Part shown: piece by piece, positions 21,201-64,000 of the stretch
How positions within the stretch are numbered: position 1 is the first letter of the stretch
Layout of the letters: each line of letters begins with the position of its first letter
Made by a program: the position numbers and the translations under genes
Assembly (NCBI RefSeq): GCF_030463565.1
Contig: NC_134643.1
Span: 125,532,309 to 125,596,308 of the forward strand
DNA length: 64,000 nucleotides
From: Pelecanus crispus
Taxonomy: Eukaryota > Chordata > Aves > Pelecaniformes > Pelecanidae
Reading direction: 5' to 3'
The notes under the pieces: generated by a model
The model's input: the letters and a program-made list of their open reading frames with translations, nothing else
What the model was told of the DNA's origin: nothing
Database searches by the model: none

Positions 21201-24200
21201 ACGCACTGTTAGTTATGCAGGTTGGCAGTGATGAGGTTGCAGAAAGAAGTCCAAAAGTGATCAAAAGGGACTTCAGGGCACTGGGGTGATTGGTTGAAGG
21301 ATCGGGAGCACAGGTAGTGTTTTCCTCGATCTCATCAGTGGCAGGGAAGAATACTGAAAGGAAAAGGAAAGCTCAGCTGATTAACATGTGGCTCAGAGGC
21401 TGGTGCCACTGGTGGAATTTTGTTTTTTTCAATCATGGTGAGGTTTACATGGCACCGGGCCTGCTGGCAACAGATGGAGTTCAGCTATCTCCAAGGTGGA
21501 AAAGGATTCTCACTCATGAGTTGGCAGGACTCATTGAGAGGGCTTTAAACTTCGAAGGGGGAAGGGGGTATAACCAGGCCCACTAGAGAGGAACCCAAGA
21601 GTGGCATGGCAATGTTGGAGGTGAAATCGATAATAGCCCAGCTCAAGTGCACCTACACCAATGCACGCAGCATGGGCAAGAAACAGGAGGAGCTGGAAGC
21701 TATTGTGCAGCAGGATGGCTATGACTTAGTCGCCATCACAGAAACATAGTGGGACAACTCGAATGACTGGAGTGCTGCAATAGATGGGTGTAAGCTCTTC
21801 AGAAGAGATAGGCAAGGAAGGAGAGGCGGTGGGGTGGCTCTGTATGTTAGGGAGTGTTTTGGCTGTATAGAGCTCGACAGTGGTGATGATAAGGTTGAGT
21901 GCTTATGAATAAGGATGAGGGGGAAGGCCAACAAGGCAGACGTCCTGCTGGGAGTCTGTTATAGACCACCCAACCAGGATGAAGAGATAGATGAAGCACT
22001 CTATAAGTGGCTGGCAGAAGTCTCACAATCGCTAGCCCTTGTTCTTGTGAGTGTCTTCAACTTGCCAGACATCTGCTGGAAATACAACATAGCAGAGAGG
22101 AAACAGTCCTGGAGTGTGTGTAAGATAACTTCCTGATGCAGCTGGTAAGTGAGTCTACCAGGGGAGGTGCCTCGCTTGACCTGTTGTTTACAAACAGAGA
22201 AGGACTCGTGGGAGATGTTGTGGTTGGAGACCGTCTTGTCCTCAGCAACCATGATACAATAGAGTTTTCAATTCTTGGCAAAGTAAGGAGGAGGGTCAGC
22301 AAAACCACTACCATGGACTTCTGGAGGGCAGGCTTTGGCCTGTTCAGGACACTGGGAAAGCCTTTTGGGAGGCAGTCCCGATTGGCAAAGGGGTCCAGGA
22401 AGGCTGGGCATTCTTCAAGAAGGAAGTCTTAAAGGTGCAGGAGCAGGCTGTCCCCGTGTGCCGTAAGATGAACTGGCAGGGAAGACGACCAGCCTGGCTG
22501 AACAGGGAGCTTTTGCTTGGACTCAGGGAAAAAAAGAGAGTTTACCACCTTTGGAAGAAGGGGCAGGCAACTCAAGAAGAGTACAGGGATCTCGTTAGGT
22601 CATGCAGGGAGGAAATTAGAAAGGCAAAAGCCCAGCTAGTACTCAATCTGGCCACTGTTGTAAGAGATAATAAAAAATGTTTCTACAAATACTTTAACAA
22701 CAAAAAGAGAGCCAAGGAGAATCTCCATCCTTTATTGGATGCAGGGGGAAACATTGCCACCAAGGATGAGGAAAAGGCTGAGGTACTTAATGCCTTCTTT
22801 GCCTCTGTCTTTAATAGCCAGACCAGTTATCCCCAGGGTATTCAGCCCCCTGAGCTGGAAGATAGGGACGGAGAGCAGAATGGAGGCCCCATAATCCAGG
22901 AGGAGGCAGTTAATGACCTGCTACGCCACCTAGATGCTCCCAAGTCTATGGGGCTGGATGGGATCCACCCGAGAGTACTGAGGGAGCTGGCAGATGAGCT
23001 TACCAAGCCACTTTCCATCATCTGTCAGCAGTCCTGGTTAACAGGGGAGGTCCCAGATGACTGGAGGCTTGCCAGCGTGACGCCCATCTACAAGAAGGGC
23101 TGGAAGGAGGACCTGGGGAACTACAGGCCTGTCAGCCTGACCTTGGTGCTGGGGAAGATTATGGAGTGGTTCATCTTGAGTACGATCAACAGGCATGTTC
23201 TGGTCAACCAGGGGATCAGGCCCAGCCAGCATGGGTTCATGAAAGGCAGGTCCTGCTTGACCAACCTGATCTCCTTCTATGACCTGGTGACCCACCTGGT
23301 GGATGAAGGAAAGGCTGTGGATGTCATCTACCTGGACTTCAGTAAGGCCTTTGACACCATCTCCCATAGCATTCTCCTAAGGAAGCTGGTGGCTCATGGC
23401 ATAGGCAGGTGTACTCTTCACTCAGTAAAAAAATGTCTGGGTGGCCAAGCCCAGAGAGTTGTGATGAATGGAGTTAAATCCAGTTAGTGACCGGTCACAA
23501 GCAGTGTTCCCCAGGGCTCTGTTTTGGGGCCAGTCTTGTTTAATATCTTTATCAACGATCTGGATGAGGGGATTGAGTGCACCCTCAGTAAGTTTGCAGA
23601 TGGCACCAAGTTGGGTGGGAGTGTCAATCTGCTCGAGGGTAGGAAGACTCTACAGATGGATCTGGACAGGCTGGATCGATGGGCCGAGGCGAATTATATG
23701 AGGTTCCACAAGGCTTGGGGTAGAGTGGCTGGAAAGCTGCCCGGCCGAAAAGGACCTGGGGGTGCTGGTTGACAGCCGGCTGAACATGAGCCAGCAGTGT
23801 GCCCAGGTGGCCAAGAAGGCCAACAGTGTCCTGGCTTGTATCAGGAATAGTGTGGCCAGCAGGAGCAGGGAGTGATTGTCCCCCTGTACTTGGCACTGGT
23901 GAGGCCGCACCTGGAATACTGTGTCCAGTTTTGGGCCCCTCAATACAAGAAAGACATTGAGGTGCTGGAGCGTGTCCAGAGAAGGGCAACAAGGCTGGTG
24001 AAGGGTCTGGAGCACAGGCCTTATGAGGAGCGGCTGAGGGAACTGGGGTTGTTTAGCCTGGAGAAGAGGAGGCTGAGGGGAGACCTTCTCGCTCTCTACA
24101 AATGCCTGAAAGGAGGTTGTAGTGAGGTGGGGGATGGTCGAGAGGAAATGGTCTAAGCTGTGTCAGGGGAAGTTTAGACTGGATATTAGGAAAAATTTCT

Positions 24201-30200: not shown

Positions 30201-33200
30201 TACTGACTTCATAAACATTGCTTACACTTTGAAATTTAAGCAAATGCTTAAGCAAGTACTTAAGTGCGGGGATGAATCCAGGCTCTATGGCTCAGCTTGG
30301 ACTTAGAAACTCAGTGTTGACAGTTCTGCACAGTTTTAGCATGTGTAAACAATGACACTGAAATCACAGGAATTATTTACAATCAGAGATTTTGTAGGTT
30401 CGGTGTTTTTTTTCTTAGGAGGAACCTACCTGCAGTAAAAAGAATCATGATTGTCCAGATTTTGGAAGCTGCATTATAGTAGTAGCGAAGAAGTGGTGAG
30501 ACCAAAGTTATATTGGTTTACTTCCCACATTTATTTTTAACTTGGCTGGCTATCTTTTTGTACGTCCCACACTTTTTTGTAACTGCTTTTGATTTGGCTA
30601 CTACACTGACTTTGATGAGATCTAAGGATCAGATAAAATAGATGGTACAGTGTCATGTAACATGTGGAGGTGGTATTCCTAAACAATTGCTCTTGTCTTC
30701 TAGCAACGATGACAGGCTTCCTAGTGGTATCTAACATGTTTATCTCCTAAAAAAGCCATGTAGTCATAGCTAGCTCGTCAGGTTTACATATGCATCAGTA
30801 GTGTTCATCTGAAGCTCTATGGGCCTGCAAAGTAATTCCTACTAAGCATAAAAAAAGTAAATGAAGCAGTTTCCACAAATATTGCTAACTGACAATATTT
30901 TCTCCTTCCCCTAAAAATCCCTGGGCCGTCATAGTCCTGCCATTAATTTGTGCTTGCCACACCAGAAACATAGGCAAAGATGGACCTGAGACTACCCTGG
31001 AGAAGAGTCCATGGTAGGAACAGATGAATAGAAGCATCTTTTCTAGCACAAGAGTTTAGAGTAAAAAGGCAATCTTTTCTCTCTGTGCAGCTATGCAGGT
31101 CACCATTCTGCAAATTCAGAGATGTATGACTTTAAGCAAGGAAGTTCTGTCAGCTTCACCATGGCTATGCTCACTTGTAAATTTCAAAATGAAAGATTAA
31201 CTTTGGAGTGTATAGATGAATGACTTGGGAGCTAACTGTGGTGATGTGAGATAACATGCTTTGGTTTTGCAATTGGGGAGTGCTCAAATCACAAAAATGA
31301 TGAGCTGTCATAAGTGACCTAGCTGGTGTTCCATTATTGGGCCATGAAATATCTTGTAATTCTGAATTAGAGATCAAAATTAATTTCCTACAAAACCTAT
31401 GACCTGGAACAGAATCTTCACTCTTTGAAGATTGCTCACTTTATTTTTCTGCTTTCTGATAATGTAGCTGATGGAAACTTCCTAAACAGAATTTCACAGG
31501 TAATACTTACATGGACAAGATTTGTACTAGCTAATTACTTGGTAGGCCCAGATAAGTTTTGCACCTACTTTTTCAGAAGTAAGACATATAACTTTTTCTC
31601 TGTAGCCTACTATCCAAGAGTTCTCATATCACTTTTTGTTTCTAGAAAAGTTTCAGCTGAGAAGAAAAAAGATGGCCATTTGGAAAACAGACAAAGGCAC
31701 GGTAGTGAAAATCAGGGATACATTCCAGAGGATCTGTGGAACACAGAAGAAATCCCAAGTGAGTCTAAGCTTGTGAATCACATATTGTCAAACTGCTTCT
31801 CAACATAGGCATTTTGGACAACATGTCAAGCAATTACATTACAAGATTTCACAATGCTTTGTGAAGGACTTGTGCTTGGCCTGAACGTTTTCAGAATATT
31901 TTGGATTTTCTAGAGTATGGCCCTTCAAAAGTATTGAGAAAACATCAAAGTTCTTTGCAGTTGAATTTAGAGTCCTGGTTTTTTTTTCTTTTTTAAATGT
32001 CTTTGTTCTTCCAAATATCTTCTCGGGCCAGAGGTGGGAGTACTGGATTCCCATACGATAGTGAATTTAGGCAATATTTTGCAGTTGGTCTGTAAAAACA
32101 AACAAAAAAAAATCCACCACCACCACCAAAAAAGAACAAAAAAAAGGAAAGAAGGAAGGGAAAAAAGGCAGTTAGTGAACTACAATTTTGCTGATAAATG
32201 ACTAAAGTGTTATAAATTCTAGTCCTTAAGCACAAAGACTCTTCAAAAGCAAATGTAAATCTCCACCAAATCGTTACCCACCACTTTGCATTTATAACCA
32301 CATTATTATCAAAACGTTTAATCAAACACTTAACGACATAAAATTATTGTGCAGAGTCTATAATCCAGGCATACATCCTTTTCTCTCTAACAAATAAATT
32401 GTGAAGAAAAAAGTGCAGTGGAAAATTTCAAGAGCATGTGGTATTGTAAAATGTAGCAGTTATAAAAAATAAAAGGAAAACTAAGTAAATCTGGACAAAT
32501 TGATTCTACTGGGTCCTAGATGGGCTTCTTTCATATTTGTTAGTGTGCTGGGTTGACCTTGGCTGGCCACCAAGTGCTCACCAAGTTGCTCTACCACTCC
32601 CCCTTCTCAACAGGACAGGGGAAGAGAATAAGATGGAAAAGCTCATGGGTCAAGATGAGGAGGGGGAGATCACTCACCAATTACTGTCACAGGCAAAGCA
32701 GACTCCACTTGAGGAAGATGAACATAATTTATTGCCAATTAATAGCAGAGTAGGATAGTGAGAAAGAAAAACAAAACTAAAACCACCTCCCCCACCCCTA
32801 CTTCTTCCAAAGCTCAACTTTCCTCCTAGCTCATCTACCTTCTCCCCACAAGCAGCGCAGGGGAGCAGGGAATGGGGGCTGTGGTCAGTCCATAACACAT
32901 TGTCTCTGCCACTTGTTCCTCCTCACACTCTTCCCCTTCTCCAGCGTGGGTTCTTCCAACAGAATGCAGTCCTTCCCGAACTTCTCCAGTGTGGGTCCTT
33001 CCCATGGGCTGCAGTTCTTCAAGAACTGCTCTAGCGTGGGTCCTTTCCATGGTACAGTCCTTTGGGAATGGAGTGCTGCAAGGTCAATCCCCCATGGGAT
33101 CACACAGTTCCTACCAGAAAACCTGCTTCTGCATGGGCACCTTTCCATGGGGCCACAGCTCCTGCCAGGAGCCTACTCCAGTGCAGCCTCTCCACAGGCT

Positions 33201-36200
33201 GTAGCTTCCCTCAGGGAACATCCACCTGCTCCGGTGTGGGGTCCTCCCGGGGCTGCAGGTGGATATCTGCTCCTCCATGGGCCGCAGGGGGCACAGCTGC
33301 CTCACCATGGTCTTCTCCACAGGCTGCAGATGATCCTCTGCTCCAGCACCTGGAGCACGTCCTCACCTCCTGCACCTGGAGCATGTCCTCACCTCCCTTC
33401 TTCACTGACCTTGGTGTCTGCAGGGCTGTTTCTCTCATTTTCCCACTCCTCTTTCCCAGCTCCTGTTGCACAGCATTTTTTACCCTTTCTTAAATACGTT
33501 ATCACAGAGGTGCCGCCACTGTCACTGATGGGCTCAGGTTTGGCCAGCAGCCAGGACCGTCTGGGAGCCAGCTGGAATTGGCTCTGTCTGACACGGGTGC
33601 AGCTCCTGGTGTCTCCTCACAGAAGTCACTCCTGCAAACTCACCCCCACTACAAAAATCTTGCTATATTAGCACAACAAATTAGCTAGAGTTTGGCTCAC
33701 AATATTAAATCATATTTAGCTGTATTCTTGAATGGCTTGTGCTTCATGCCATGGTGGACGCTGAATAACAGTAGTCTCATATATTCTTGTTACAGGAATT
33801 GCCTCTCTTCCCCCAATGTCTTCAAAGTTCACTGTTCCTGCTGCAGATTTAAATACCAGTTCTGTACCAAAGGTAATTATAATGCTGAAATCTTGACCTT
33901 TTTTTTCACACTGTGTGTATCGTACTATATCCAAACATAGATTTTGGGTGGAGGTAGACATTTGTAAATCAATTACAGCTGTAATTGGGTAAGTGGAATG
34001 TCCCTTCAGCATTCCTGAATGTTTGATTTATAAGGATAAGTGCCCTGGGCATTAGCCTCGGATTTAGATTGATTTTGGGGGGGGATGGGAGGTGAGGGAG
34101 AAACAACCACCCCTGATATTTGGAAGAAATGTCTAATAAAGCTTTTGTCACATCTGTTCCCCTCAGCACCCTGCGACATCTTCCTCCCCACCTCCCAGGC
34201 TAAAGTTACAAAGTCACAGACTTCCCCTCATAGAATCATAGAATCATAGAATATCTCAAGTTGGAAAGGACCCATAAGGTTCACCAAGTCCAATACCCTG
34301 CTTCTCGCAGGACTACCTAAAACTAAACCATATGACTAAAAGCATCATCCAGACGCTCCTTGAACTCTGAGAGGCGTTCAGTCAGTGTCTGCTTTTATCT
34401 TTCCATTGCTTTTCGTATCTGTCATCCTCCAAATGTCAGCTAGGCCTTTCTGCTGGCCAGCATGATGGGTAGCCCTGGCTGGGACAGACTTCCCATAGGT
34501 AAAGCCAATTGTTTTTTCATCATTCCTGGGACTAAAAAGTCTCCTTCTCTCTCTCCACAAGCACACTTATTACAATTAGTTAATTATTTCAGCCTTGCCA
34601 GCCAGAGTAACTCTGGTTTGGCTTTTGGGAATTCACCTCTTGTGTATTCCCATTAAACCATTATAATGTGGAGGTTGGCTTTGCTCTGGGCATGCAATAA
34701 TGGAGAGCTGTTATATAGGTACCTTTGCCAAAGTGGAGGTCTGCAATGTTTTTGTTCTCCCCAGTCACCAGACTGGAGGAGATGTGGATATAAGATGGAG
34801 GCACTGTTGAAGGTGAGGTTTCAGGTTCCTTTGCAAACAAAATCCAGTGCAGATACAGTAAATAAATGTGCATTTTCTCTGGATCATTTCTTGGTTGTAT
34901 TTTCCAGTTACACTTCCATATTGCAGAAGTTGCTTCAAGTCAGGAACTTTACACTGATTTTAGAGACCTTCAGTATCTCAGTAGTAAATGATGGAAGGGA
35001 AAGCATGCAGATAACACCCAGCCCACCCTAGAGCTTTTTCCACTTTCCATGTGGCTAGCACGTAAAGAAGTAAAACTCAGCATTTATTCTTCTACTTAAC
35101 TCAGCATTTATTCTTCTCCTTGTTCCATTCTCAGCTACCTCTGTTCTGAAGGGTGGTGCTGAGCTCTCTTAGCTTCTAGCAAAACAGCAACGTGGATCTT
35201 AATTTATGCAATATATTTGTAAAATACATTTAGCACACTCATGATGGTTTTTCCAAATATTCTGTTGGGAAAGTGGCAGTGATGTGGTACTGAATTCACT
35301 CCTCAACACAGTGACAACTCATTTATTTTTGAAGAGCTGTTTCAACATGTACAATGCAGAAATCTGTCTTGGGATGACATTGCATATAAATCATAGCAGA
35401 GTGTGTCTAGTTCTTCTGGCACACAATGAAATTTAGGAAGTACTCAATCAATGATTAAAACAATGATCAAAATAATAACAGTAAAAGTAATAGCAACGAT
35501 ACTGATGTATTTGTGGCTGGTAGTTATTATGCTTGACATTAATTACTTGCCAGACAAAATACTATTAAAGCAAAGCTGAAAAGCATATACAAAAGAGCTG
35601 AGGGTTCAGTGGGGATCTATAACCCTGAGCAAAAGTTTCAGACAGTGTTTGATAAGCTTATGAATAGGGTTATAAGGCACTGGCCATGTTTACATGCACA
35701 AGGCATGGGCAAGCCTGTGCTGGAGCAGGCTCCTGGCAGGACCTGTGGACCCGTAGAGACAGAGGAGCCCATGCTGGAGCAGGTTTGCTGGCAGGACTTG
35801 TGACCCCACGGGGTCTGCTCCTGAAGGACTGCACCCCGTGGAAGGGACCCACACTGCAGCAGTTTGTGAAGAACTGCAGCCCGTGGGAAAGACCCATGTT
35901 GGAGAAGTTTGTGGAGGGCTGTCTCCCTGTGGAAGGGTCCCACACTGGAGCAGGGGAAGAGTGTGAGGAGTCCTCCCCTGAGGAAGAAAGAGTGACAGAG
36001 ATGACGTGATGAACTGACCACAACCCCCATTCCCTGTCCCCCTGAGCTGCTTGGGGGGAGGAGGTAGAGAAATTGGGAGTGAAGTTGAGCCTGGGAAGCA
36101 GGGAGGGGTGAGGAGAAGGTGTTTGAAGGTTTGGTTTTATTTCTTTCTTATCACCCTACCCAGTTTTGACTGGCAATAAATTAAACTAATTTTCCTCAAG

Positions 36201-53200: not shown

Positions 53201-54330
53201 GCAATGATCTTGGTCACAGTCGAAAATAGTTCTCCCTATTTTGCAGGGGTGAGGGAGGAAGGAGAACAGGGACAGGGAGGGAAAGGCACGTTTCAGCAGC
53301 AGAAAGGAGTTGACTGTCATGTCTTCTCCGCTGTTGTAAACCAAACGTCATTCATTTGAAACCATTTTGTTTAAAGACACTAGACTGAAGATCCGCTGGG
53401 GTGACTGAGACAAGACACTGGACTATTCTGCTAACAGCTCTCCCAAGAGTCAAATCATGCATTACTTGTTTTCTTGTTTTATAATAATCATAATTGCCTT
53501 TTCCAGCTGAACCCCATATATTGCTGATACATGGTGCATAGGTTAGCGATAGTATTTTGTCACTGCTTTTTAATACTGAATTTAAATGTGGTCTAAGCAG
53601 ATAAGTAGCAAACTGTTTACAGATGCAGAACTGAGAGTGTAATTAACCATCTTGCTTAATGAGGTATTAGTGGGTATCACCCAAGAGCTTGAGGATATGT
53701 ATAAAATATGCTTTCTCCTACTTCTCAGTCCTTGTCCTGATCAGTGCCTCATCAAATTGAGCTCTCAAGAACAAACAACAACAGAAAATCCCATTAGGAA
53801 ATAAAGCTTCAGAATTCATTAAAGATCCTGAGTCACCTGTGCAGGCTAGTGCAGGACTGGCAGGGTTTTCCTCCTGCACCAGGGTAAGAGAGGTCCAACA
53901 TTAGGCAGCCCTTACCCTCAGGCCCTGGATTAGAAGGTTTTCTGCCTCCCAGAGAACTTGGGCATACTTCAAAGCCCAAGAAGTGCTGTGGCCTCTAGAG
54001 ATGCACCACTGAGAGGTACATGCAGGGGCAGATTCGCACAGCCGTGTTCTGATATAACTCCACAACCAAGTAACTACACAGGCTACTTCTCCACCCAAGG
54101 AACAACTTGTGACCAGATGGCATCAGGGACCCTGATAGTGTGCAGTAGGATGGCTGAGACATTCCTGCAAAGGCAGAAAATGTGTTAGAGATAGGAACTA
54201 CAGTGAGTTTCTTGTTATACATGGAAGCCCTATTTACTCATCTGAAATTTGTATAAAAATATTTTTACATATCTTATTCCATGCCACCTGGCAACATAAC
54301 AATGCATTGACAAAGATAATACACACACAC
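44223..54330. other. Intergenic region downstream of IGSF5
   Basis: No coding gene recognised. PCP4, the next gene by synteny, was looked for and not found. The region contains a T run (48546-48564), a moderately GC-rich patch (about 50760-51130) and an exon-like segment (52614-52675). It ends with an (AC)5 tract at 54321-54330 directly at the retroviral insertion point. Open frames are short and without domains. Confidence 0.6.
52614..52675 (+). other. Exon-like segment with good splice signals (uncertain)
   Basis: A 62-nt segment bounded by a polypyrimidine tract and acceptor (TACTTTTTTTCCTACCGCAG) and a strong donor (ATAG/GTAAGAG). One of three frames is open through it. There is no start codon context, no linked exon and no protein similarity that I recognise. 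It could be a non-coding RNA exon, a UTR exon of the next gene, or chance. Confidence 0.25.
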
Positions 54331-54901
54331 TGTCGTGGTTTAGCCCCAGCCAGCAACTAAGCACCACGCAGCCGCTCGCTCACTCCCCCTACCCCGATGG
54401 GATGGGGGAGAGAATTGGAGGAGTAAGAGTGAGAAACACTCCTGGGCTGAGATAAGAACAGTTTAATAATTGAAATAAAGTAAAATAGTAATGCTAATAG
54501 TAACAGTATAATAATGATAATAATAATAATGATACACGAAGCAAGTGATGCACAATGCAATTGCTCACCACCCGCCGACCGATACCCAGACAGTTCCCGA
54601 GCAGCGATCGCTGCTCCCCGGCCAACCCCCCCCAGTTTATATACTGAGCATGACGTCATATGGTATGGAATAGCCCTTTGGTCAGTTTGGATCAACTATT
54701 CTGGCTGTGCCCCCTCCCAGTTTCTTGTGCGCCTGGCAGAGCATGGGAAGCTGAAAAAGTCCTTGACTAGCATAAGCAGTACTCAGCAACAACTAAAAAC
54801 ATCAGCCTGTTATCAACATTCTTCTCCTACTAAATCCAAAACACAGCACTATGCCTGCTGCTAGGAAGAAAATTAACTCTATCCCAGCCGAAACCAGGAC
54901 A
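54331..54901 (-). mobile_element. Left LTR, reversed (U5 outward)
   Basis: A 571-bp LTR on the - strand, starting TGTCCTGGTTTCGGC (complement, at 54901) and ending in the complement of TGTCGTGGTTTAGCC at 54331, with TG...CA ends. It carries a CRE/ATF palindrome TGACGTCA (54651-54658) and a TATA box (54636-54643). Transcription from it would run left, away from gag and toward the 3' side of IGSF5. It differs from the right LTR at one position in the visible part (54398). Confidence 0.88.
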
Positions 54902-55368
54902 GTATCCACCCCTTATTCTATACCATCTACGTCATGCACAGGCCCTCCCCTTTCCAATGTGTTCCAATTAATCACCACCCCTTTCCCTATCTTGATATAC
55001 ACACAGATATCATTCCCTTCGTCTATGGCCCATCCCTCTAAAATGTCCATTGAGTTCATTTAGCCCATGACTTTGGGTTCCATCTGTCATCACAGTCTTT
55101 CAGAGCAGGAGAGGTGGTGTGCAGTGTTGGACTGTTGCATGCTGAAGTCAGTTCTCATTCCAACATGGTTTCATCAAAGTTCATTTTCCTTAGGCTGGGC
55201 AATTCTTACTGCAATACCATTGATGCGTCATATAGCAATCATAATATATAGTATTATATACTTAATGTTAACCTACTATATTATTATATTAACATGCAGT
55301 TAAGAGATAACATATAGTTAAGAGATAACATACAGTATTATAAAGCAATTAATATTATACAATTCAGT
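54902..55368 (-). other. Reversed pol-to-LTR spacer
   Basis: An inverted copy of 62972-63438. It is AT-rich near pol with a repeated TTATCTCTTAACT motif. No env or accessory open frame. Confidence 0.8.
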
Positions 55369-57685
55369 TCATTGGCTATTTTCACCCAAAATCAAATTCC
55401 CTTGAGGTACACATTGGGCTTCCCCATCCTTTCGCATCACCCACCAAGTGCACCCAGGTCCTTGAGCAAAAGCAATCCCACGAATGGGTTTGCCTTTGCC
55501 AGAGGGGGAAGTAACCCAGACTGTCTTCCCCAGCATATTTTTCATGTGCACTACAGGAACTTTATCTCCTTCTACAGTACGTAGAAGTTTTGATTGGGCA
55601 GGGCCAGCTCGATTGGCAGATCCCCTGGTGTTGACTAACCAGGTGGCTTTTGCTAAATGCGTATCCCAATGTTTAAACGTCCCACCACCCATTGCTCTCA
55701 GGGTAGTCTTTAACAATCCATTGTATCGCTCAATTTTCCCGGAGGCTGGTGCATGGTAAGGGATGTGATACACCCACTCAATGCCGTGCTCTTTGGCCCA
55801 GGTGTCTATGAGGTTGTTTCGGAAATGAGTCCCGTTGTCTGACTCAATTCTTTCTGGGGTGCCATGTCGCCACAGGACTTGCTTTTCAAGGCCCAGGATG
55901 GTGTTCCGGGCGGTGGCATGGGGCACGGGATATGTTTCCAACCATCCAGTGGTTGCTTCCACCATGGTGAGCACATAGCGCTTGCCCTGGCGGGTCTGTG
56001 GGAGCGTGATGTAATCAATCTGCCAGGCCTCCCCATATTTATATTTTAGCCATCGTTCACTATACCCAAGGGGCTTGAACTGCTTGGCTTGCTTGATTGC
56101 AGCGCATGTTTCACACTCATGAATAACCTGTGCAATACTGTCCATAGTTAAGTCCACCCCTCGATCACGAGCCCATTTATACGTTGCATCCCTTCCTTGA
56201 TGGCCTGAGGCATCATGGGCCCACCGAGCTATAAATAATTCACCCTTATGTTGCCAGTCCAAATCCACCTGAGCCACTTCAATCTTAGCAGCCTGATCTA
56301 CTTGCTGGTTGTTTTGATGTTCTTCAGTGGCCCGACTCTTAGGTACATGAGCATCTACATGACGAACTTTTACAACCAGGTTCTCTACCCGGGCAGCAAT
56401 ATCTTGCCACAATGCGGCAGCCCAGATTGGTTTGCCTCTGCGCTGCCAGTTGCTCTGCTTCCATTGCTGCAGCCACCCCCACAGGGCATTTGCCACCATC
56501 CATGAGTCAGTATAGAGATAAAGGATTGGCCACTTTTCTCTTTCAGCAATATCTAAAGCCAGCTGGATGGCTTTCACCTCTGCAAACTGACTCGACTCCC
56601 CTTCTCCTTCAGCAGTTTCTGCGACTTGTCGTATAGGACTCCATACAGCAGCTTTCCACCTCCGATGCTTTCCCACAAGACGACAGGACCCATCAGTGAA
56701 CAGGGCATATTGCTTTTCATTTTCTGGCAATTTATTATACAGTGGGGCCTCTTCAGCACGTGTCACCTCCTCCTCTGGTGATATTCTAAGGTTTTTTCCT
56801 TCTGACCAGTCCATGATCACTTCCAAGATTCCTGGGCGACTGGGGTTTCCTATTCGAGCCCGTTGTGTGATCAATGCAACCCACTTACTCCATGTAGCAT
56901 CAGTTGCATGATGTGTAGAGGGGACCCTCCCTTTGAACATCCAGCCCAACACTGGCAGTCGGGGTGCCAGCAGGAGCTGTGCTTCAGTACCAACCACTTC
57001 TGAAGCAGCTCGAACCCCTTCATATGCTGCCAGTATCTCTTTCTCAGTTGGAGTGTAGCGGGCTTCGGATCCTCTGTATCCCCGACTCCAAAACCCTAGG
57101 GGTCGACCTCGAGTCTCCCCTGGTGCTTTCTGCCAGAGGCTCCAGGTAGGGCCATTCTCCCCGGCTGCGGTGTAGAGCACATTTTTAATATCCTGCCCTG
57201 CCCGGACTGGCCCAAGGGCTACTGCATGAACTATCTCACGTTTAATTTGTTCAAAGGCTTGTTGTTGCTCAGGGCCCCATTTGAATTCGTTCTTCTTCCG
57301 GGTCACTTGATAGAGAGGGCTTACGATCTGACTGTAATTTGGAATATGCATTCTCCAAAACCCCACAACGCCTAAGAAAGCTTGTGTTTCCTTTTTGCTA
57401 GTTGGTGGGGACATAGCTGTTATTTTGTTGATCACATCCATTGGGATCTGACGACGTCCATCTTGCCATTTTATTCCTAAAAACTGGATCTCCTGTGCAG
57501 GCCCCTTGACCTTACTCTGTTTTATGGCAAAACCAGCCTTCAGAAGGATTTGGACTATTTTCTTTCCCTTCTCAAAAACTTCTTCTGCTGTATTGCCCCA
57601 CACAATGATGTCATCAATGTACTGCAGATGTTCTGGAGCTTCACCCTGTTCCAGTGCTGTCTGGATCAGTCCATGGCAAATGGTG
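55369..57685 (-). pseudogene. pol: 5'-truncated, inverted pol copy (RT C-terminal part, RNase H, integrase)
   Basis: An inverted duplicate of the last 771 codons of pro-pol, starting at residue 291 and running to the normal TGA. It keeps the YIDD active-site box, RNase H and the whole integrase, but lacks protease and the first part of RT, including the first catalytic Asp. The frame stays open across the junction into complement-of-PBS sequence for about 11 more codons, but only from a TTG, so there is no start codon. It differs from the intact copy at one residue (Ser for Pro in the segment at 56805) plus silent changes. It is preceded by no promoter in its own direction, and the LTR lies at its 3' end. 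Confidence 0.9.
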
Positions 57686-57687
57686 CC

Positions 57688-57705
57688 TGGCGCCCAACGT
57701 GGGGC
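57688..57705 (+). other. Retroviral primer binding site (tRNA-Lys type)
   Basis: TGGCGCCCAACGTGGGGC, 18 nt, beginning with the TGG that pairs with the CCA end of a tRNA. I recognise it as the complement of the 3' end of the tRNA-Lys1,2 class. It lies about 85 nt before the gag ATG, the normal position for a leader, but the sequence upstream is the reversed pol fragment, not U5. ERV-L elements of mammals are named after a Leu primer, so a Lys-type PBS in this pol lineage is noteworthy. Confidence 0.85.
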
Positions 57706-57790
57706 CTGAGATAACAACAGATTAATCAGAGTGTATTAAGGAGTCTGTTAACAGTTGCCGGTCACGATATTAGTTCTTCTGATCTGCACC
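57706..57790 (+). other. gag leader
   Basis: An 85-nt untranslated leader between the PBS and the gag ATG. The frame is open back to a TTG at 57755, but the first ATG, with a good context (GCACCATGT), is at 57791. No packaging hairpin was assigned. Confidence 0.6.
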
Positions 57791-59785
57791 ATGTTCTTTT
57801 TTTTGCAGCACGCGTTAAAGCTAGCTGTCAGTTTGTGTAGTGTGCTATGCTCTGCAGTGATTCATGATCTTTTGCTTGGGAGGCTCCTTATCAAAACCCT
57901 GACCTTGAGCATTCTTTGGTATTTGGGTTTCATACAGAAGTCACTACTGTACTTCGGGTACTACCTCATAGAGAGAGTTAGCAATTATACTTCTTACTCT
58001 GAGAGGCTTGTTGTGGAGGAAATACAGAATGGCACCTTTGCTGCTTTCTTCTATGATGTTTCCTCCTTCATTACAACAACTTTCCTGTATCTTGAACACC
58101 CCTGGGCAGTTAAGATACTTCTATTGATAATTCTTGGGAATGTTGTTTCCATTTTGATAAAGGTCAGTAAGCAGTTTAAAAATACCATCCAGAGATCTAC
58201 CCCAAGGCTGGATAGTTATGAGTGGCAGGGTGTGTGGGATCGTATGCGCAAGTACCTAGGGCAGTGGGGACCTCCAGTGTTTTGGAACTTCACCCCTGAA
58301 CAAGTGCAGAATCCTGAAGAATTAGTAAAGTATTTGGAAGAAGTATGTTGTCACCCTGGTAGCTCCAGAGAGACACAAATCATTGCAACATGCTGGGGAC
58401 TGGCCCATGCCTATCGAGCCGTGGTCAACGCCAATCAGTACCCTCAAAAGAAAGAGAAGGTCTCTGGATCTGATGACAAAACAACAAGCACTGTGGCTAC
58501 TCAAACCCCCACTACAGGCCCTGCGGCTACTCCAACCCCCACTACAGGCCTTGCAGCTACTCAAACCCCTGCCCCAGGCACTGTGGCTACTCCAGCCACA
58601 GCCATGAGCACTGCGGCTACTCAAACCCCAGTGACAGACACTGTGGCTAAACCAGAGAACCAACCTGCGCCGGTATCAGTTGCCCCTATACAGAAGAAAA
58701 AATACACGAGGAAATCAGTTCGTTTAGTAAGGGATGAAGATGAACCAGGGCCATCACGAGAACCAGAGGAGGAAGAACCCATAAATGAGATGGTGACCAC
58801 CCGATCCCTATCCCTGAGTGAGCTGCGAGATATGCGAAAAGATTTTGGTCGTCATCCAGGCGAGCACATCATCACCTGGCTGCTCCGATGCTGGGATAAC
58901 GGGGCCAGTAGCCTGGATTTAGAGGGTAGGGAAGCCAAGCAGCTGGGATCCCTTTCCAGGGAAGGGGGCATTGACAAAGCAATTGGAAAAGGGGCAAAAC
59001 CGCTCAGCCTCTGGAGGCGACTTCTGTCAAGCGTGAAGGAAAGGTATCCCTTCAAGGAGGATGTTTTATACCGCCCAAGCAAATGGACCACCGTAGAGAA
59101 AGGTATCCAGTACCTGAGGGAATTAGGCGTGCTGGAGGTGATTTACAGTGACCTGAATGATGAGCGGTTAACCAAAGACCCAGATGAAGTCAGGTGCACA
59201 CAATCCATGTGGCGGAAGGTGGTACGGAGCGCACCAGCATCGTATTCCAACTCGTTGGCAATACTAGCCTGGAAAGACGACGAGGCACCAACGGTGGATG
59301 AAGTGGCTAGACAACTCCGGGACTACGAAGAAAAGCTCTCTTCCTCCCTACGGGCCTGTGTCTCGGCTGTGGAAAAACTGTCTGAAAAAATATGCCAAGA
59401 GTTCCAACAACTCAGAGAGGATCTGTCCTACTCCCCACCTGCACGGACCAGTGTCTCAGCCATTAGGAGTCAACGTCCCTATGCTCAAGAGAGAGGATAT
59501 AGAGGATACACACCACGGGGCACCCTGCGGTTTTACCTGCGTGATTATGGAGAGGACATGAGAAAGTGGGATGGAAAACCCACCTCAACCTTAGAGGCAC
59601 GGGTGCGTGAGTTGCAAGGAAAAACTATTAGAAAAGGCGGTTCTCCCAGGAAAATTGCAGCTCCAGTTTCCAGTGAGCAGTTCCCCAGACAGAGTAAGAG
59701 GGCTAATTTTACTTCCGACCTTGATCAGGGAACTTTTGATTCACATTTACAGGAAGTGAACAACGAATACTGTGACCAGTGTTAG
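57791..59785 (+). CDS. gag: Gag polyprotein of ERVL-like provirus, intact
   Basis: 664 residues from the ATG at 57791 to TAG at 59783-59785. The start was chosen because it is the first ATG and has a good Kozak context. The region of about residues 1-60 and a segment near 105-135 are strongly hydrophobic, like membrane segments, instead of a usual soluble matrix domain. Residues 235-284 are five tandem 10-residue Ala/Thr/Pro repeats. A basic patch and an acidic linker follow. Residues about 340-520 (LRDMRKDFGRHPGEH onward) resemble the ERV-L/Fv1 capsid region. After a predicted coiled coil (about 505-545) the basic C-terminus has no CCHC zinc knuckle; it ends CDQC. Gag builds the particle shell. 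This copy has no stop or frameshift. No LTR promoter lies upstream in the right direction, so expression is doubtful. Confidence 0.85.
   Translation: MFFFLQHALKLAVSLCSVLCSAVIHDLLLGRLLIKTLTLSILWYLGFIQKSLLYFGYYLIERVSNYTSYSERLVVEEIQNGTFAAFFYDVSSFITTTFLYLEHPWAVKILLLIILGNVVSILIKVSKQFKNTIQRSTPRLDSYEWQGVWDRMRKYLGQWGPPVFWNFTPEQVQNPEELVKYLEEVCCHPGSSRETQIIATCWGLAHAYRAVVNANQYPQKKEKVSGSDDKTTSTVATQTPTTGPAATPTPTTGLAATQTPAPGTVATPATAMSTAATQTPVTDTVAKPENQPAPVSVAPIQKKKYTRKSVRLVRDEDEPGPSREPEEEEPINEMVTTRSLSLSELRDMRKDFGRHPGEHIITWLLRCWDNGASSLDLEGREAKQLGSLSREGGIDKAIGKGAKPLSLWRRLLSSVKERYPFKEDVLYRPSKWTTVEKGIQYLRELGVLEVIYSDLNDERLTKDPDEVRCTQSMWRKVVRSAPASYSNSLAILAWKDDEAPTVDEVARQLRDYEEKLSSSLRACVSAVEKLSEKICQEFQQLREDLSYSPPARTSVSAIRSQRPYAQERGYRGYTPRGTLRFYLRDYGEDMRKWDGKPTSTLEARVRELQGKTIRKGGSPRKIAAPVSSEQFPRQSKRANFTSDLDQGTFDSHLQEVNNEYCDQC
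58493..58642 (+). repeat. In-frame 30-bp tandem repeat in gag, five copies
   Basis: Each unit starts GTGGCTACTC or a close variant (58493, 58523, 58553, 58583, 58613) and encodes ten residues of the type VATQTPTTGP. The first two units are most alike and the fourth is most diverged. A sixth partial unit (GTGGCTAAAC) follows. It makes a flexible Pro/Thr linker between the hydrophobic N-terminus and the capsid part. Confidence 0.9.
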
Positions 59786-59859
59786 AGGGGCCCTGCCTCC
59801 AGCCAGGTGGAGGAAAGGGACAACCGGGTTTACTGGACTGTGTGGATTCGATGGCCTGG
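59783..59859 (+). promoter_or_regulatory. Candidate UAG readthrough site between gag and pro-pol
   Basis: Gag and pro-pol are in the same frame, separated only by TAG (59783-59785). Ten nucleotides later, CCTCC (59796-59800) can pair with GGAGG (59809-59813), closing an 8-nt loop. The loop bases CCAGG (59803-59807) can pair with CCTGG at 59855-59859, which would make a pseudoknot. This recalls gammaretroviral stop-codon suppression. The pairing is seen by eye. Function is inferred, and the downstream codon (AGG) differs from the usual G-starting context. Confidence 0.5.
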
Positions 59860-62800
59860 AACGTCAGACCCACAGGAGTATAAGGCTCTAGTGGACACTG
59901 GTGCACAGTGCACGCTAATGCCATCAAACTATAGAGGGGCAGAACCCATTTGTATTTCTGGAGTGACAGGGGGATCCCAACAGCTAACTGTACTGGAAGC
60001 TGAAGTGAGCCTAACTGGGAATGAGTGGCAAAAGCACCCCATTGTGACTGGCCCAGATGCTCCGTGCATCCTTGGCATAGACTACCTCAGGAGAGGGTAT
60101 TTCAAGGACCCAAAAGGGTACCGGTGGGCTTTTGGTATAGCTGCTTTGGAGACAGAGGAAATTAAACAGTTGTCCACCTTGCCCGGTCTCTCAGAGGACC
60201 CTTCAATTGTAGGGTTGCTGAAGGTTGAGGAACAACAGGTGCCGATTGCTACCACAACTGTGCACAGGCGGCAATATCACACCAACCGAGACTCCCTGAT
60301 TCCCATCCATAACCTGATTCGTCGACTGGAGAGCCAGGGAGTGATCAGCAAGACTCGCTCACCCTTTAACAGTCCCATATGGCCAGTGCGAAAGTCTAAT
60401 GGGGAGTGGAGACTAACAGTGGACTATCGTGGCCTGAACGAAGTTACACCGCCGCTGAGTGCTGCCGTGCCAGACATGCTGGAACTTCAATATGAACTGG
60501 AGTCAAAGGCAGCTAAGTGGTATGCCACAATTGATATTGCTAATGCATTTTTCTCCATCCCTTTGGCAGCAGAGTGCAGGCCCCAGTTTGCTTTTACCTG
60601 GAGGGGTGTTCAGTACACCCGGAACCGACTGCCCCAGGGGTGGAAGCACAGCCCCACCATTTGCCATGGACTGATCCAGACAGCACTGGAACAGGGTGAA
60701 GCTCCAGAACATCTGCAGTACATTGATGACATCATTGTGTGGGGCAATACAGCAGAAGAAGTTTTTGAGAAGGGAAAGAAAATAGTCCAAATCCTTCTGA
60801 AGGCTGGTTTTGCCATAAAACAGAGTAAGGTCAAGGGGCCTGCACAGGAGATCCAGTTTTTAGGAATAAAATGGCAAGATGGACGTCGTCAGATCCCAAT
60901 GGATGTGATCAACAAAATAACAGCTATGTCCCCACCAACTAGCAAAAAGGAAACACAAGCTTTCTTAGGCGTTGTGGGGTTTTGGAGAATGCATATTCCA
61001 AATTACAGTCAGATCGTAAGCCCTCTCTATCAAGTGACCCGGAAGAAGAATGAATTCAAATGGGGCCCTGAGCAACAACAAGCCTTTGAACAAATTAAAC
61101 GTGAGATAGTTCATGCAGTAGCCCTTGGGCCAGTCCGGGCAGGGCAGGATATTAAAAATGTGCTCTACACCGCAGCCGGGGAGAATGGCCCTACCTGGAG
61201 CCTCTGGCAGAAAGCACCAGGGGAGACTCGAGGTCGACCCCTAGGGTTTTGGAGTCGGGGATACAGAGGATCCGAAGCCCGCTACACTCCAACTGAGAAA
61301 GAGATACTGGCAGCATATGAAGGGGTTCGAGCTGCTTCAGAAGTGGTTGGTACTGAAGCACAGCTCCTGCTGGCACCCCGACTGCCGGTGTTGGGCTGGA
61401 TGTTCAAAGGGAGGGTCCCCTCTACACATCATGCAACTGATGCTACATGGAGTAAGTGGGTTGCATTGATCACACAACGGGCTCGAATAGGAAACCCCAG
61501 TCGCCCAGGAATCTTGGAAGTGATCATGGACTGGCCAGAAGGAAAAAACCTTAGAATATCACCAGAGGAGGAGGTGACACGTGCTGAAGAGGCCCCACTG
61601 TATAATAAATTGCCAGAAAATGAAAAGCAATATGCCCTGTTCACTGATGGGTCCTGTCGTCTCGTGGGAAAGCATCGGAGGTGGAAAGCTGCTGTATGGA
61701 GTCCTATACGACAAGTCGCAGAAACTGCTGAAGGAGAAGGGGAGTCGAGTCAGTTTGCAGAGGTGAAAGCCATCCAGCTGGCTTTAGATATTGCTGAAAG
61801 AGAAAAGTGGCCAATCCTTTATCTCTATACTGACTCATGGATGGTGGCAAATGCCCTGTGGGGGTGGCTGCAGCAATGGAAGCAGAGCAACTGGCAGCGC
61901 AGAGGCAAACCAATCTGGGCTGCCGCATTGTGGCAAGATATTGCTGCCCGGGTAGAGAACCTGGTTGTAAAAGTTCGTCATGTAGATGCTCATGTACCTA
62001 AGAGTCGGGCCACTGAAGAACATCAAAACAACCAGCAAGTAGATCAGGCTGCTAAGATTGAAGTGGCTCAGGTGGATTTGGACTGGCAACATAAGGGTGA
62101 ATTATTTATAGCTCGGTGGGCCCATGATGCCTCAGGCCATCAAGGAAGGGATGCAACGTATAAATGGGCTCGTGATCGAGGGGTGGACTTAACTATGGAC
62201 AGTATTGCACAGGTTATTCATGAGTGTGAAACATGCGCTGCAATCAAGCAAGCCAAGCAGTTCAAGCCCCTTGGGTATAGTGAACGATGGCTAAAATATA
62301 AATATGGGGAGGCCTGGCAGATTGATTACATCACGCTCCCACAGACCCGCCAGGGCAAGCGCTATGTGCTCACCATGGTGGAAGCAACCACTGGATGGTT
62401 GGAAACATATCCCGTGCCCCATGCCACCGCCCGGAACACCATCCTGGGCCTTGAAAAGCAAGTCCTGTGGCGACATGGCACCCCAGAAAGAATTGAGTCA
62501 GACAACGGGACTCATTTCCGAAACAACCTCATAGACACCTGGGCCAAAGAGCACGGCATTGAGTGGGTGTATCACATCCCTTACCATGCACCAGCCTCCG
62601 GGAAAATTGAGCGATACAATGGATTGTTAAAGACTACCCTGAGAGCAATGGGTGGTGGGACGTTTAAACATTGGGATACGCATTTAGCAAAAGCCACCTG
62701 GTTAGTCAACACCAGGGGATCTGCCAATCGAGCTGGCCCTGCCCAATCAAAACTTTTACGTACTGTAGAAGGAGATAAAGTTCCTGTAGTGCACATGAAA

Positions 62801-62971
62801 AATATGCTGGGGAAGACAGTCTGGGTTACTTCCCCCTCTGGCAAAGGCAAACCCATTCGTGGGATTGCTTTTGCTCAAGGACCTGGGTGCACTTGGTGGG
62901 TGATGCGAAAGGATGGGGAAGCCCAATGTGTACCTCAAGGGAATTTGATTTTGGGTGAAAATAGCCAATGA
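59786..62971 (+). CDS. pol: Pro-Pol (protease, RT, RNase H, integrase) of ERVL-like provirus, intact
   Basis: 1061 codons open from the base after the gag TAG to TGA at 62969-62971, with no AUG at its start, so it would be made as a Gag-Pro-Pol readthrough product. Domains in order: aspartic protease with DTGA (catalytic Asp37) and ILGIDYL; reverse transcriptase with LTVDYRGLN, catalytic Asp250 and YIDD at 312-315; RNase H with TDGS (Asp621) and TDSW; integrase with an HHCC zinc site (about 778-818) and a DD35E triad at Asp847, Asp906 and Glu942, with the exact 35-residue spacing. The layout is typical of ERV-L. No dUTPase follows integrase, though many mammalian ERV-L elements have one. All catalytic residues are present. 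Expression is doubtful without an upstream LTR. Confidence 0.9.
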   Translation, partial: RGPASSQVEERDNRVYWTVWIRWPGTSDPQEYKALVDTGAQCTLMPSNYRGAEPICISGVTGGSQQLTVLEAEVSLTGNEWQKHPIVTGPDAPCILGIDYLRRGYFKDPKGYRWAFGIAALETEEIKQLSTLPGLSEDPSIVGLLKVEEQQVPIATTTVHRRQYHTNRDSLIPIHNLIRRLESQGVISKTRSPFNSPIWPVRKSNGEWRLTVDYRGLNEVTPPLSAAVPDMLELQYELESKAAKWYATIDIANAFFSIPLAAECRPQFAFTWRGVQYTRNRLPQGWKHSPTICHGLIQTALEQGEAPEHLQYIDDIIVWGNTAEEVFEKGKKIVQILLKAGFAIKQSKVKGPAQEIQFLGIKWQDGRRQIPMDVINKITAMSPPTSKKETQAFLGVVGFWRMHIPNYSQIVSPLYQVTRKKNEFKWGPEQQQAFEQIKREIVHAVALGPVRAGQDIKNVLYTAAGENGPTWSLWQKAPGETRGRPLGFWSRGYRGSEARYTPTEKEILAAYEGVRAASEVVGTEAQLLLAPRLPVLGWMFKGRVPSTHHATDATWSKWVALITQRARIGNPSRPGILEVIMDWPEGKNLRISPEEEVTRAEEAPLYNKLPENEKQYALFTDGSCRLVGKHRRWKAAVWSPIRQVAETAEGEGESSQFAEVKAIQLALDIAEREKWPILYLYTDSWMVANALWGWLQQWKQSNWQRRGKPIWAAALWQDIAARVENLVVKVRHVDAHVPKSRATEEHQNNQQVDQAAKIEVAQVDLDWQHKGELFIARWAHDASGHQGRDATYKWARDRGVDLTMDSIAQVIHECETCAAIKQAKQFKPLGYSERWLKYKYGEAWQIDYITLPQTRQGKRYVLTMVEATTGWLETYPVPHATARNTILGLEKQVLWRHGTPERIESDNGTHFRNNLIDTWAKEHGIEWVYHIPYHAPASGKIERYNGLLKTTLRAMGGGTFKHWDTHLAKATWLVNTRGSANRAGPAQSKLLRTVEGDKVPVVHMKNMLGKTVWVTSPSGKGKPIRGIAFAQGPGCTWWVMRKDGEAQCVPQGNLILGENSQ

Positions 62972-63438
62972 ACTGAATTGTATAATATTAATTGCTTTAT
63001 AATACTGTATGTTATCTCTTAACTATATGTTATCTCTTAACTGCATGTTAATATAATAATATAGTAGGTTAACATTAAGTATATAATACTATATATTATG
63101 ATTGCTATATGACGCATCAATGGTATTGCAGTAAGAATTGCCCAGCCTAAGGAAAATGAACTTTGATGAAACCATGTTGGAATGAGAACTGACTTCAGCA
63201 TGCAACAGTCCAACACTGCACACCACCTCTCCTGCTCTGAAAGACTGTGATGACAGATGGAACCCAAAGTCATGGGCTAAATGAACTCAATGGACATTTT
63301 AGAGGGATGGGCCATAGACGAAGGGAATGATATCTGTGTGTATATCAAGATAGGGAAAGGGGTGGTGATTAATTGGAACACATTGGAAAGGGGAGGGCCT
63401 GTGCATGACGTAGATGGTATAGAATAAGGGGTGGATAC
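62972..63438 (+). other. pol-to-LTR spacer, no env
   Basis: 467 bp of AT-rich sequence without an open frame for an envelope protein. Purine-rich stretches GGAAAGGGGAGGG (about 63384) and AATAAGGGGTGGA (63423-63435) lie before the LTR. The second is close enough to the LTR start to be the polypurine tract that primes plus-strand DNA, although it is imperfect. Confidence 0.7.
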
Positions 63439-64000
63439 TGTCCTGGTTTCGGCTGGGATAGAGTTAATTTTCTTCCTAGCAGCAGGCATAGTGCTGTGTT
63501 TTGGATTTAGTAGGAGAAGAATGTTGATAACAGGCTGATGTTTTTAGTTGTTGCTGAGTACTGCTTATGCTAGTCAAGGACTTTTTCAGCTTCCCATGCT
63601 CTGCCAGGCGCACAAGAAACTGGGAGGGGGCACAGCCAGAATAGTTGATCCAAACTGACCAAAGGGCTATTCCATACCATATGACGTCATGCTCAGTATA
63701 TAAACTGGGGGGGGTTGGCCGGGGAGCAGCGATCGCTGCTCGGGAACTGTCTGGGTATCGGTCGGCGGGTGGTGAGCAATTGCATTGTGCATCACTTGCT
63801 TCGTGTATCATTATTATTATTATCATTATTATACTGTTACTATTAGCATTACTATTTTACTTTATTTCAATTATTAAACTGTTCTTATCTCAGCCCAGGA
63901 GTGTTTCTCACTCTTACTCCTCCAATTCTCTCCCCCATCCCGTCGGGGTAGGGGGAGTGAGCGAGCGGCTGCGTGGTGCTTAGTTGCTGGCTGGGGCTAA
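63439..64000 (+). mobile_element. Right (3') LTR, cut by window end
   Basis: It starts TGTCCTGGTTTCGGC. By symmetry with the left copy it should end at about 64009, for a length of 571 bp. Signals: CRE/ATF palindrome TGACGTCA (63682-63689), TATA box TATATAAA (63697-63704), an ATT-rich microsatellite (63808-63832) and ATTAAA (63873-63878) as the likely poly(A) signal. Transcription from it would leave the element to the right. Confidence 0.9.
63682..63704 (+). promoter_or_regulatory. LTR core promoter: CRE palindrome and TATA box
   Basis: TGACGTCA (63682-63689) is a perfect CRE/ATF site and lies eight bases before TATATAAA (63697-63704). The same pair is at 54636-54658 in the reversed left LTR. 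The CRE suggests response to CREB/ATF-type factors, known for several retroviral LTRs. Confidence 0.7.

Follow-up and report, generated by a model that had tools for sequence, protein, structure and literature searches.

An ERVL-type provirus of Pelecanus crispus with inverted terminal LTRs and an inverted pol half abutting its primer binding site

The stretch of Pelecanus crispus DNA analysed here (the window, 64 kb in full, to which all coordinates refer) ends on its right side in an ERVL-type provirus, in which the 5′ LTR is replaced by an inverted LTR together with the inverted 3′ half of pol. Its features are as follows:

54326–54330 (no strand): target-site duplication CACAC, left copy; the right copy lies at 64010–64014, just past the window
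54331–54901 (minus): inverted LTR, 571 bp, TG...CA ends, U5 end outward
54902–57685 (minus): inverted 3′ half of pol (C-terminal part of the reverse transcriptase (RT), RNase H, integrase) and the pre-LTR stretch
55369–57717 (minus): open pol frame of the left arm, 782 aa
57686–57687 (no strand): junction bases CC, which continue neither pol nor the normal LTR–PBS spacer
57688–57705 (plus): primer binding site (PBS), presumably of tRNA-Lys type
57706 (plus): base 19 of the stretch that opens with PBS base 1; C in this element, T (77) or A (2) in the 79 others surveyed
57755–59785 (plus): open frame in the gag position, first ATG at codon 13
59807–62971 (plus): pro-pol open frame, 1054 aa, with DTGA at 59894, YIDD at 60719, RNase H and integrase
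60655–64000 (plus): right arm of the inverted repeat, which runs on to 64009
63439–64000 (plus): right LTR, U5 end outward; its final 9 bases lie past the window and it ends at 64009

A repeat search of the window places the inverted arms at 54340–57685 and 60655–64000, each 3346 nt long, with 2969 nt between them. When compared base by base, the arms obey exactly the axis x + x′ = 118340 given in the initial annotation for at least 3346 bp without an indel. The absence of indels holds; the arms are 99.82% alike rather than perfectly so, with 6 mismatches in 3346 positions, all of them transitions. Chance is no explanation for a match of 3.3 kb. The repeat search, the reading frames and the Pfam domains likewise bear out the arrangement first proposed, with PBS-gag-pro-pol-LTR on the right, the inverted pol 3′ half plus LTR on the left, and no ordinary 5′ LTR. 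Ordinary proviruses carry direct LTRs at both ends. That trait is absent here, the LTRs being inverted with U5 outward at both ends.

Pfam identifies RT, RNase H and integrase domains in pol, and a protein search names close relatives from many birds. The gag-position frame has no Pfam match and resembles bird proteins in the protein search. Some of its relatives are misnamed in public data (P0137, P0144, P0206, P0230) as ubiquitin carboxyl-terminal hydrolase 4, as AMFR ligase or, in one record, as a Klebsiella sequence, which probably reflects gene-model fusions and contamination. In the same frame a 30-base unit is repeated in tandem five to six times (58480–58679). The number of these repeats may vary among copies of the family, since one ordinary copy (L009) aligns to the region in two overlapping pieces. 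Elsewhere in the window, a second and unrelated reverse transcriptase frame (22435–23487; RVT_1, E 9.5e-17) is probably a fragment of a non-LTR element, and three inverted repeat pairs of 44–100 bases, about 2.5–3 kb apart, occur between 32919–33189 and 35712–35970 in related tandem repeats.

The assignment to ERVL draws on several class features. For instance, the best solved-structure matches of the RNase H–integrase part are foamy-virus integrases, in keeping with an ERVL pol nearest to those of spumaviruses, a placement by best structure match. In the env position, no plus-strand ORF of at least 80 aa starts between 62971 and the LTR. The foamy-like integrase, the TG...CA LTRs, the 5-bp duplication in 8 of 8 ordinary copies and the lack of an env-position ORF are shared with avian ERVL proviruses of the TguERVL type, a likeness drawn from class features. 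Human ERV-L is named from its tRNA-Leu primer site; the PBS here is taken to be of tRNA-Lys type, and the name-giving feature presumably need not hold in birds. ERVL elements are classed by a 5-bp target-site duplication in the relevant passages of one source (PMC6523648), and the element has such a duplication, CACAC, which lies in a CA repeat.

The position of that duplication was established at both ends of the element. Bases past the window edge were fetched from the same genome assembly to see the end of the right LTR, which falls at the predicted position 64009; both termini are thus U5 ends in opposite orientation, as had been annotated. The sequence after 64009 reads CACACAAAAAAG and the left flank ends in ACACACACAC, with CACAC adjoining both LTR tips. 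Owing to the CA repeat, duplication lengths of 1, 3 and 5 are all compatible; each of 8 ordinary copies examined from this genome has a 5-bp duplication, 5 being the longest match. Integrase-type insertion with a target-site duplication, a trait of ordinary proviruses, is thereby present in the element by comparison with these 8 copies. The palindrome stops exactly at the LTR edges, and the host flanks beyond the tips are not complementary to each other. Because the palindrome ends there, a single integrase-type insertion of linear DNA with two U5 ends is indicated, not a chromosomal foldback, and the tips and the 5-bp duplication suggest that integrase inserted the two U5 tips. Foldback of the chromosome, foldback of a sequencing read and capture of cDNA in an older inverted copy were all rejected: after 64009 they predict bases complementary to the left flank or else further pol sequence, and the fetched flank has neither.

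The internal junction is equally distinctive. A pattern search of the 1.31-Gb assembly finds 272 exact PBS matches, 80 of which were surveyed (40 of 1402 candidates scored, plus 40 further sites). A normal U5 end and a T-rich spacer precede the PBS at 79 of the 80 sites. In the first set 39 of 40 sites are normal and the fortieth is the element itself; in the second all 40 are normal, the LTR end of one of them bearing one change. The ordinary spacer of the 79 other copies (L002–L010, L051–L080, L089–L128) reads GTCCTTTT; it is T-rich and at least 8 bases long, some copies having an additional T. Unlike these ordinary avian ERVL copies with their U5-spacer-PBS joint, the element has its LTRs inverted and its PBS next to pol: the inverted pol runs into CC, after which comes PBS base 1, an order seen only in this element among the 80. 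The CC was considered as a usual 2-base spacer and rejected, since the family spacer is 8 bases long and T-rich. A typical retroviral LTR–PBS spacer measures about 2 bases; as that of the family is at least 8, processing of its U5 end may remove more than two bases. A junction placed at random would fall within 2 bases of the PBS edge at about 5 of 6895 positions. A microhomology-primed jump was also rejected, the only match near the junction being 7 bases long and expected by chance at 5.5%.

One further peculiarity lies next to the junction. Base 19 from the PBS start (57706) is C in the element, in contrast to T in 77 of 79 other copies and A in 2, and is one of 3 private sites in 1613 bases compared with 9 copies. 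The two copies with A (L095, L099) show that the position varies; their A may stem from a methylated base of the tRNA that was copied wrongly. As a separate observation on PBS copies, four on the same strand occur near the end of one contig (C1:226893250–227001906) at spacings of about 36.4, 36.1 and 36.1 kb, which would fit tandem duplication of a 36-kb segment containing one provirus.

Comparison with other copies bears on the source and age of the arms. Pol pieces were fetched from 39 copies, of which 38 aligned, one over 209 bases only, leaving 37 in use. Of the six differing sites, the minority base is in the left arm at four (61387, 61535, 61663, 62756) and in the right arm at two (61051 and the LTR site 63942, judged against 9 copies). 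These arm-specific alleles are rare, being found in 0 to 4 of 36–37 copies and, for the LTR site, in 0 of 9. Both arms also have minority alleles in common at 61514, 61550, 61814 and 62399, and all four together occur in none of the 37 other copies, which suggests that the arms come from one source or from two near-identical sources. Similarity of the arms is unexceptional by itself: over 1602 sites they have 4 differences, a level that 143 of 666 pairs of other copies do not exceed. Two independent insertions were rejected, being opposed by the single target duplication and by the minority alleles common to both arms.

Some of the arm differences may nevertheless be older than the insertion. 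Four other copies carry the element's pair of alleles at 61514 and 61550; at 61663 all four agree with the left arm, and at 61051 one of the four (L040) agrees with the right. These copies are no near kin, with 13–27 mismatches to the right arm in 1881 bases. Their alleles suggest that certain differences may predate insertion, as if the arms stemmed from two slightly different RNAs. A simple count of four changes on the left and two on the right after insertion is undone by the state of 61663 in all four allele-sharing copies. If the arms were identical at birth, 6 differences in 3346 positions give an age of about 0.3–0.9 million years at assumed rates of 1–3 × 10−9 per site and year; the element would be younger if some differences predate insertion.

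What the DNA shows directly is the structure with its tips and junction, the five repeated bases and two closely related arms. These features point, with a probability of roughly three in four, to a single provirus whose precursor was an abnormal linear viral DNA, formed in the course of reverse transcription and bearing U5 at both of its tips. Minus-strand DNA should end at PBS base 1. In favour of the reverse-transcription route, the junction abuts this base, at which copying of the tRNA also begins, given the order of steps in one account (PMC3187697). In the normal route described there, plus-strand strong-stop DNA, part of it a tRNA copy, pairs with the PBS of the minus strand, and both strands are extended.

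The individual steps of the abnormal route are a reconstruction. Within one particle, one minus-strand DNA would have been completed to the PBS, while another halted in the RT gene, perhaps at an RNA break. The unfinished strand would then have gained two untemplated bases, CC, followed by the PBS sequence; for the latter it could have used the 3′ end of a packaged tRNA-Lys as template, or else have jumped directly to where the finished minus strand has its 3′ end. Bearing a PBS, it could have stood in for plus-strand strong-stop DNA at the second strand transfer. The two usual extensions would yield fully double-stranded DNA with two U5 tips, both of which integrase would join to host DNA with the usual 5-bp duplication. 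Derivation from two slightly different RNAs would agree with one finished and one unfinished strand, and would weaken the reading that both arms share a source.

The tRNA version of this route can be put forward only tentatively. By this version, the unfinished strand would have copied a packaged tRNA-Lys from its free 3′ end and stopped at base 19 before replacing the strong-stop DNA. tRNAs carry 1-methyladenosine at position 58, opposite base 19 from the PBS start. With the tRNA as template, the untemplated CC, the change at base 19 and a copy beginning at PBS base 1 would all be accounted for; the argument from base 19 is post hoc and is weakened by the 2 of 79 ordinary copies that also vary there. 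The data poorly separate tRNA copying from a direct jump onto the finished minus strand.

The main rival is host end joining, which would leave an identical junction. A pair of partial viral DNAs, one extending to the PBS and the other breaking off in the RT gene, would have been fused head to head and then inserted by integrase through their U5 tips. Such a fusion covers the two U5 tips, the 5-bp duplication, the junction at the PBS edge and the two extra bases, all with no template jump. It is nonetheless unlikely, as both partial DNAs must be double-stranded at the joined ends and the change at base 19 would be a coincidence. A different kind of origin, and a very improbable one, is that an ordinary provirus, once inserted, was rearranged within the chromosome when DNA repair switched templates, once at the LTR tip and once at the PBS. 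The LTR tips are imperfect inverted repeats, and a switch there is conceivable; two switches are required, however, one hitting the LTR tip precisely, where 4 bases match, and the other precisely PBS base 1. A simple foldback would extend into host DNA, where the flanks do not match.

Inverted repeats are also a common class of assembly and library artefact, and the structure is known from one assembly. An artefact would have to produce six scattered arm differences with no indel, a matching 5-bp duplication at two U5 tips with different flanks beyond, and a junction exactly at the PBS edge, all within a chromosome-scale contig of 228 Mb, and this reading is given hardly any weight. Assembly error as the source of the palindrome is unlikely because of the duplication at the two U5 tips, the six scattered differences and the exact PBS-edge junction.

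Judging from their orientation, both LTRs should transcribe outward, with none facing gag-pol, and the element is expected to be silent inside. As no LTR promoter is directed toward gag-pol, the element is probably inactive and is not expected to copy itself. Read-through transcription could yield a long hairpin RNA.

The element can be regarded as a record of a rare failure in the well-studied process of reverse transcription. It suggests that a wrong donor in the second strand transfer need not prevent the DNA from being completed and made fit for integration, and that a molecule with two U5 ends can be inserted by an ERVL integrase in the germ line. If the tRNA version is true, the locus would be a natural record of tRNA-templated PBS capture followed by concerted germ-line integration of two U5 ends. 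Its structure also offers a signature for long-read genome scans, namely outward LTRs at both ends and inverted pol immediately next to the PBS. Routine ERV annotation would probably break such an element up into two pieces.

Within a limited search of open-licence literature, no inverted-LTR provirus appears in the titles or abstract openings among the matches listed; no published counterpart was found there, and the form is represented by the single element described here. The junction peptide occurs in none of 337 relative proteins, in a search listing the best 120 of 442 matches, which is a weak test of recurrence. The LTR and PBS patterns have no matches in the viral contig and genome contig collections, and the integrase-half query gave no confirmed relative among viral contigs; there was no plasmid match.

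Several known kinds of rearranged retroviral DNA resemble the element in part. In autointegration, the CA end of an LTR is joined to an internal viral site, giving rearranged DNA with inverted parts. Such products share inverted parts with the element; its pol-CC-PBS junction differs in having neither an LTR end nor the usual spacer. Among defective HIV-1 proviruses, 1.3% (n = 1) were found with inversions and 1.3% (n = 1) with an inversion plus a deletion (PMC9278108). These resemble the element in being rearranged with parts inverted, and the passages of that source on the inversion cases make no mention of inverted terminal LTRs (PMC9278108). Proviruses with asymmetric LTRs, as described in part of the same source, involve the same step as that proposed here, a PBS–PBS plus-strand transfer with an unexpected partner (PMC9278108). 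Unlike the element, they derive from a strong-stop donor, which leaves the 5′ LTR intact and the 3′ LTR deleted (PMC9278108). Their LTRs would stay direct.
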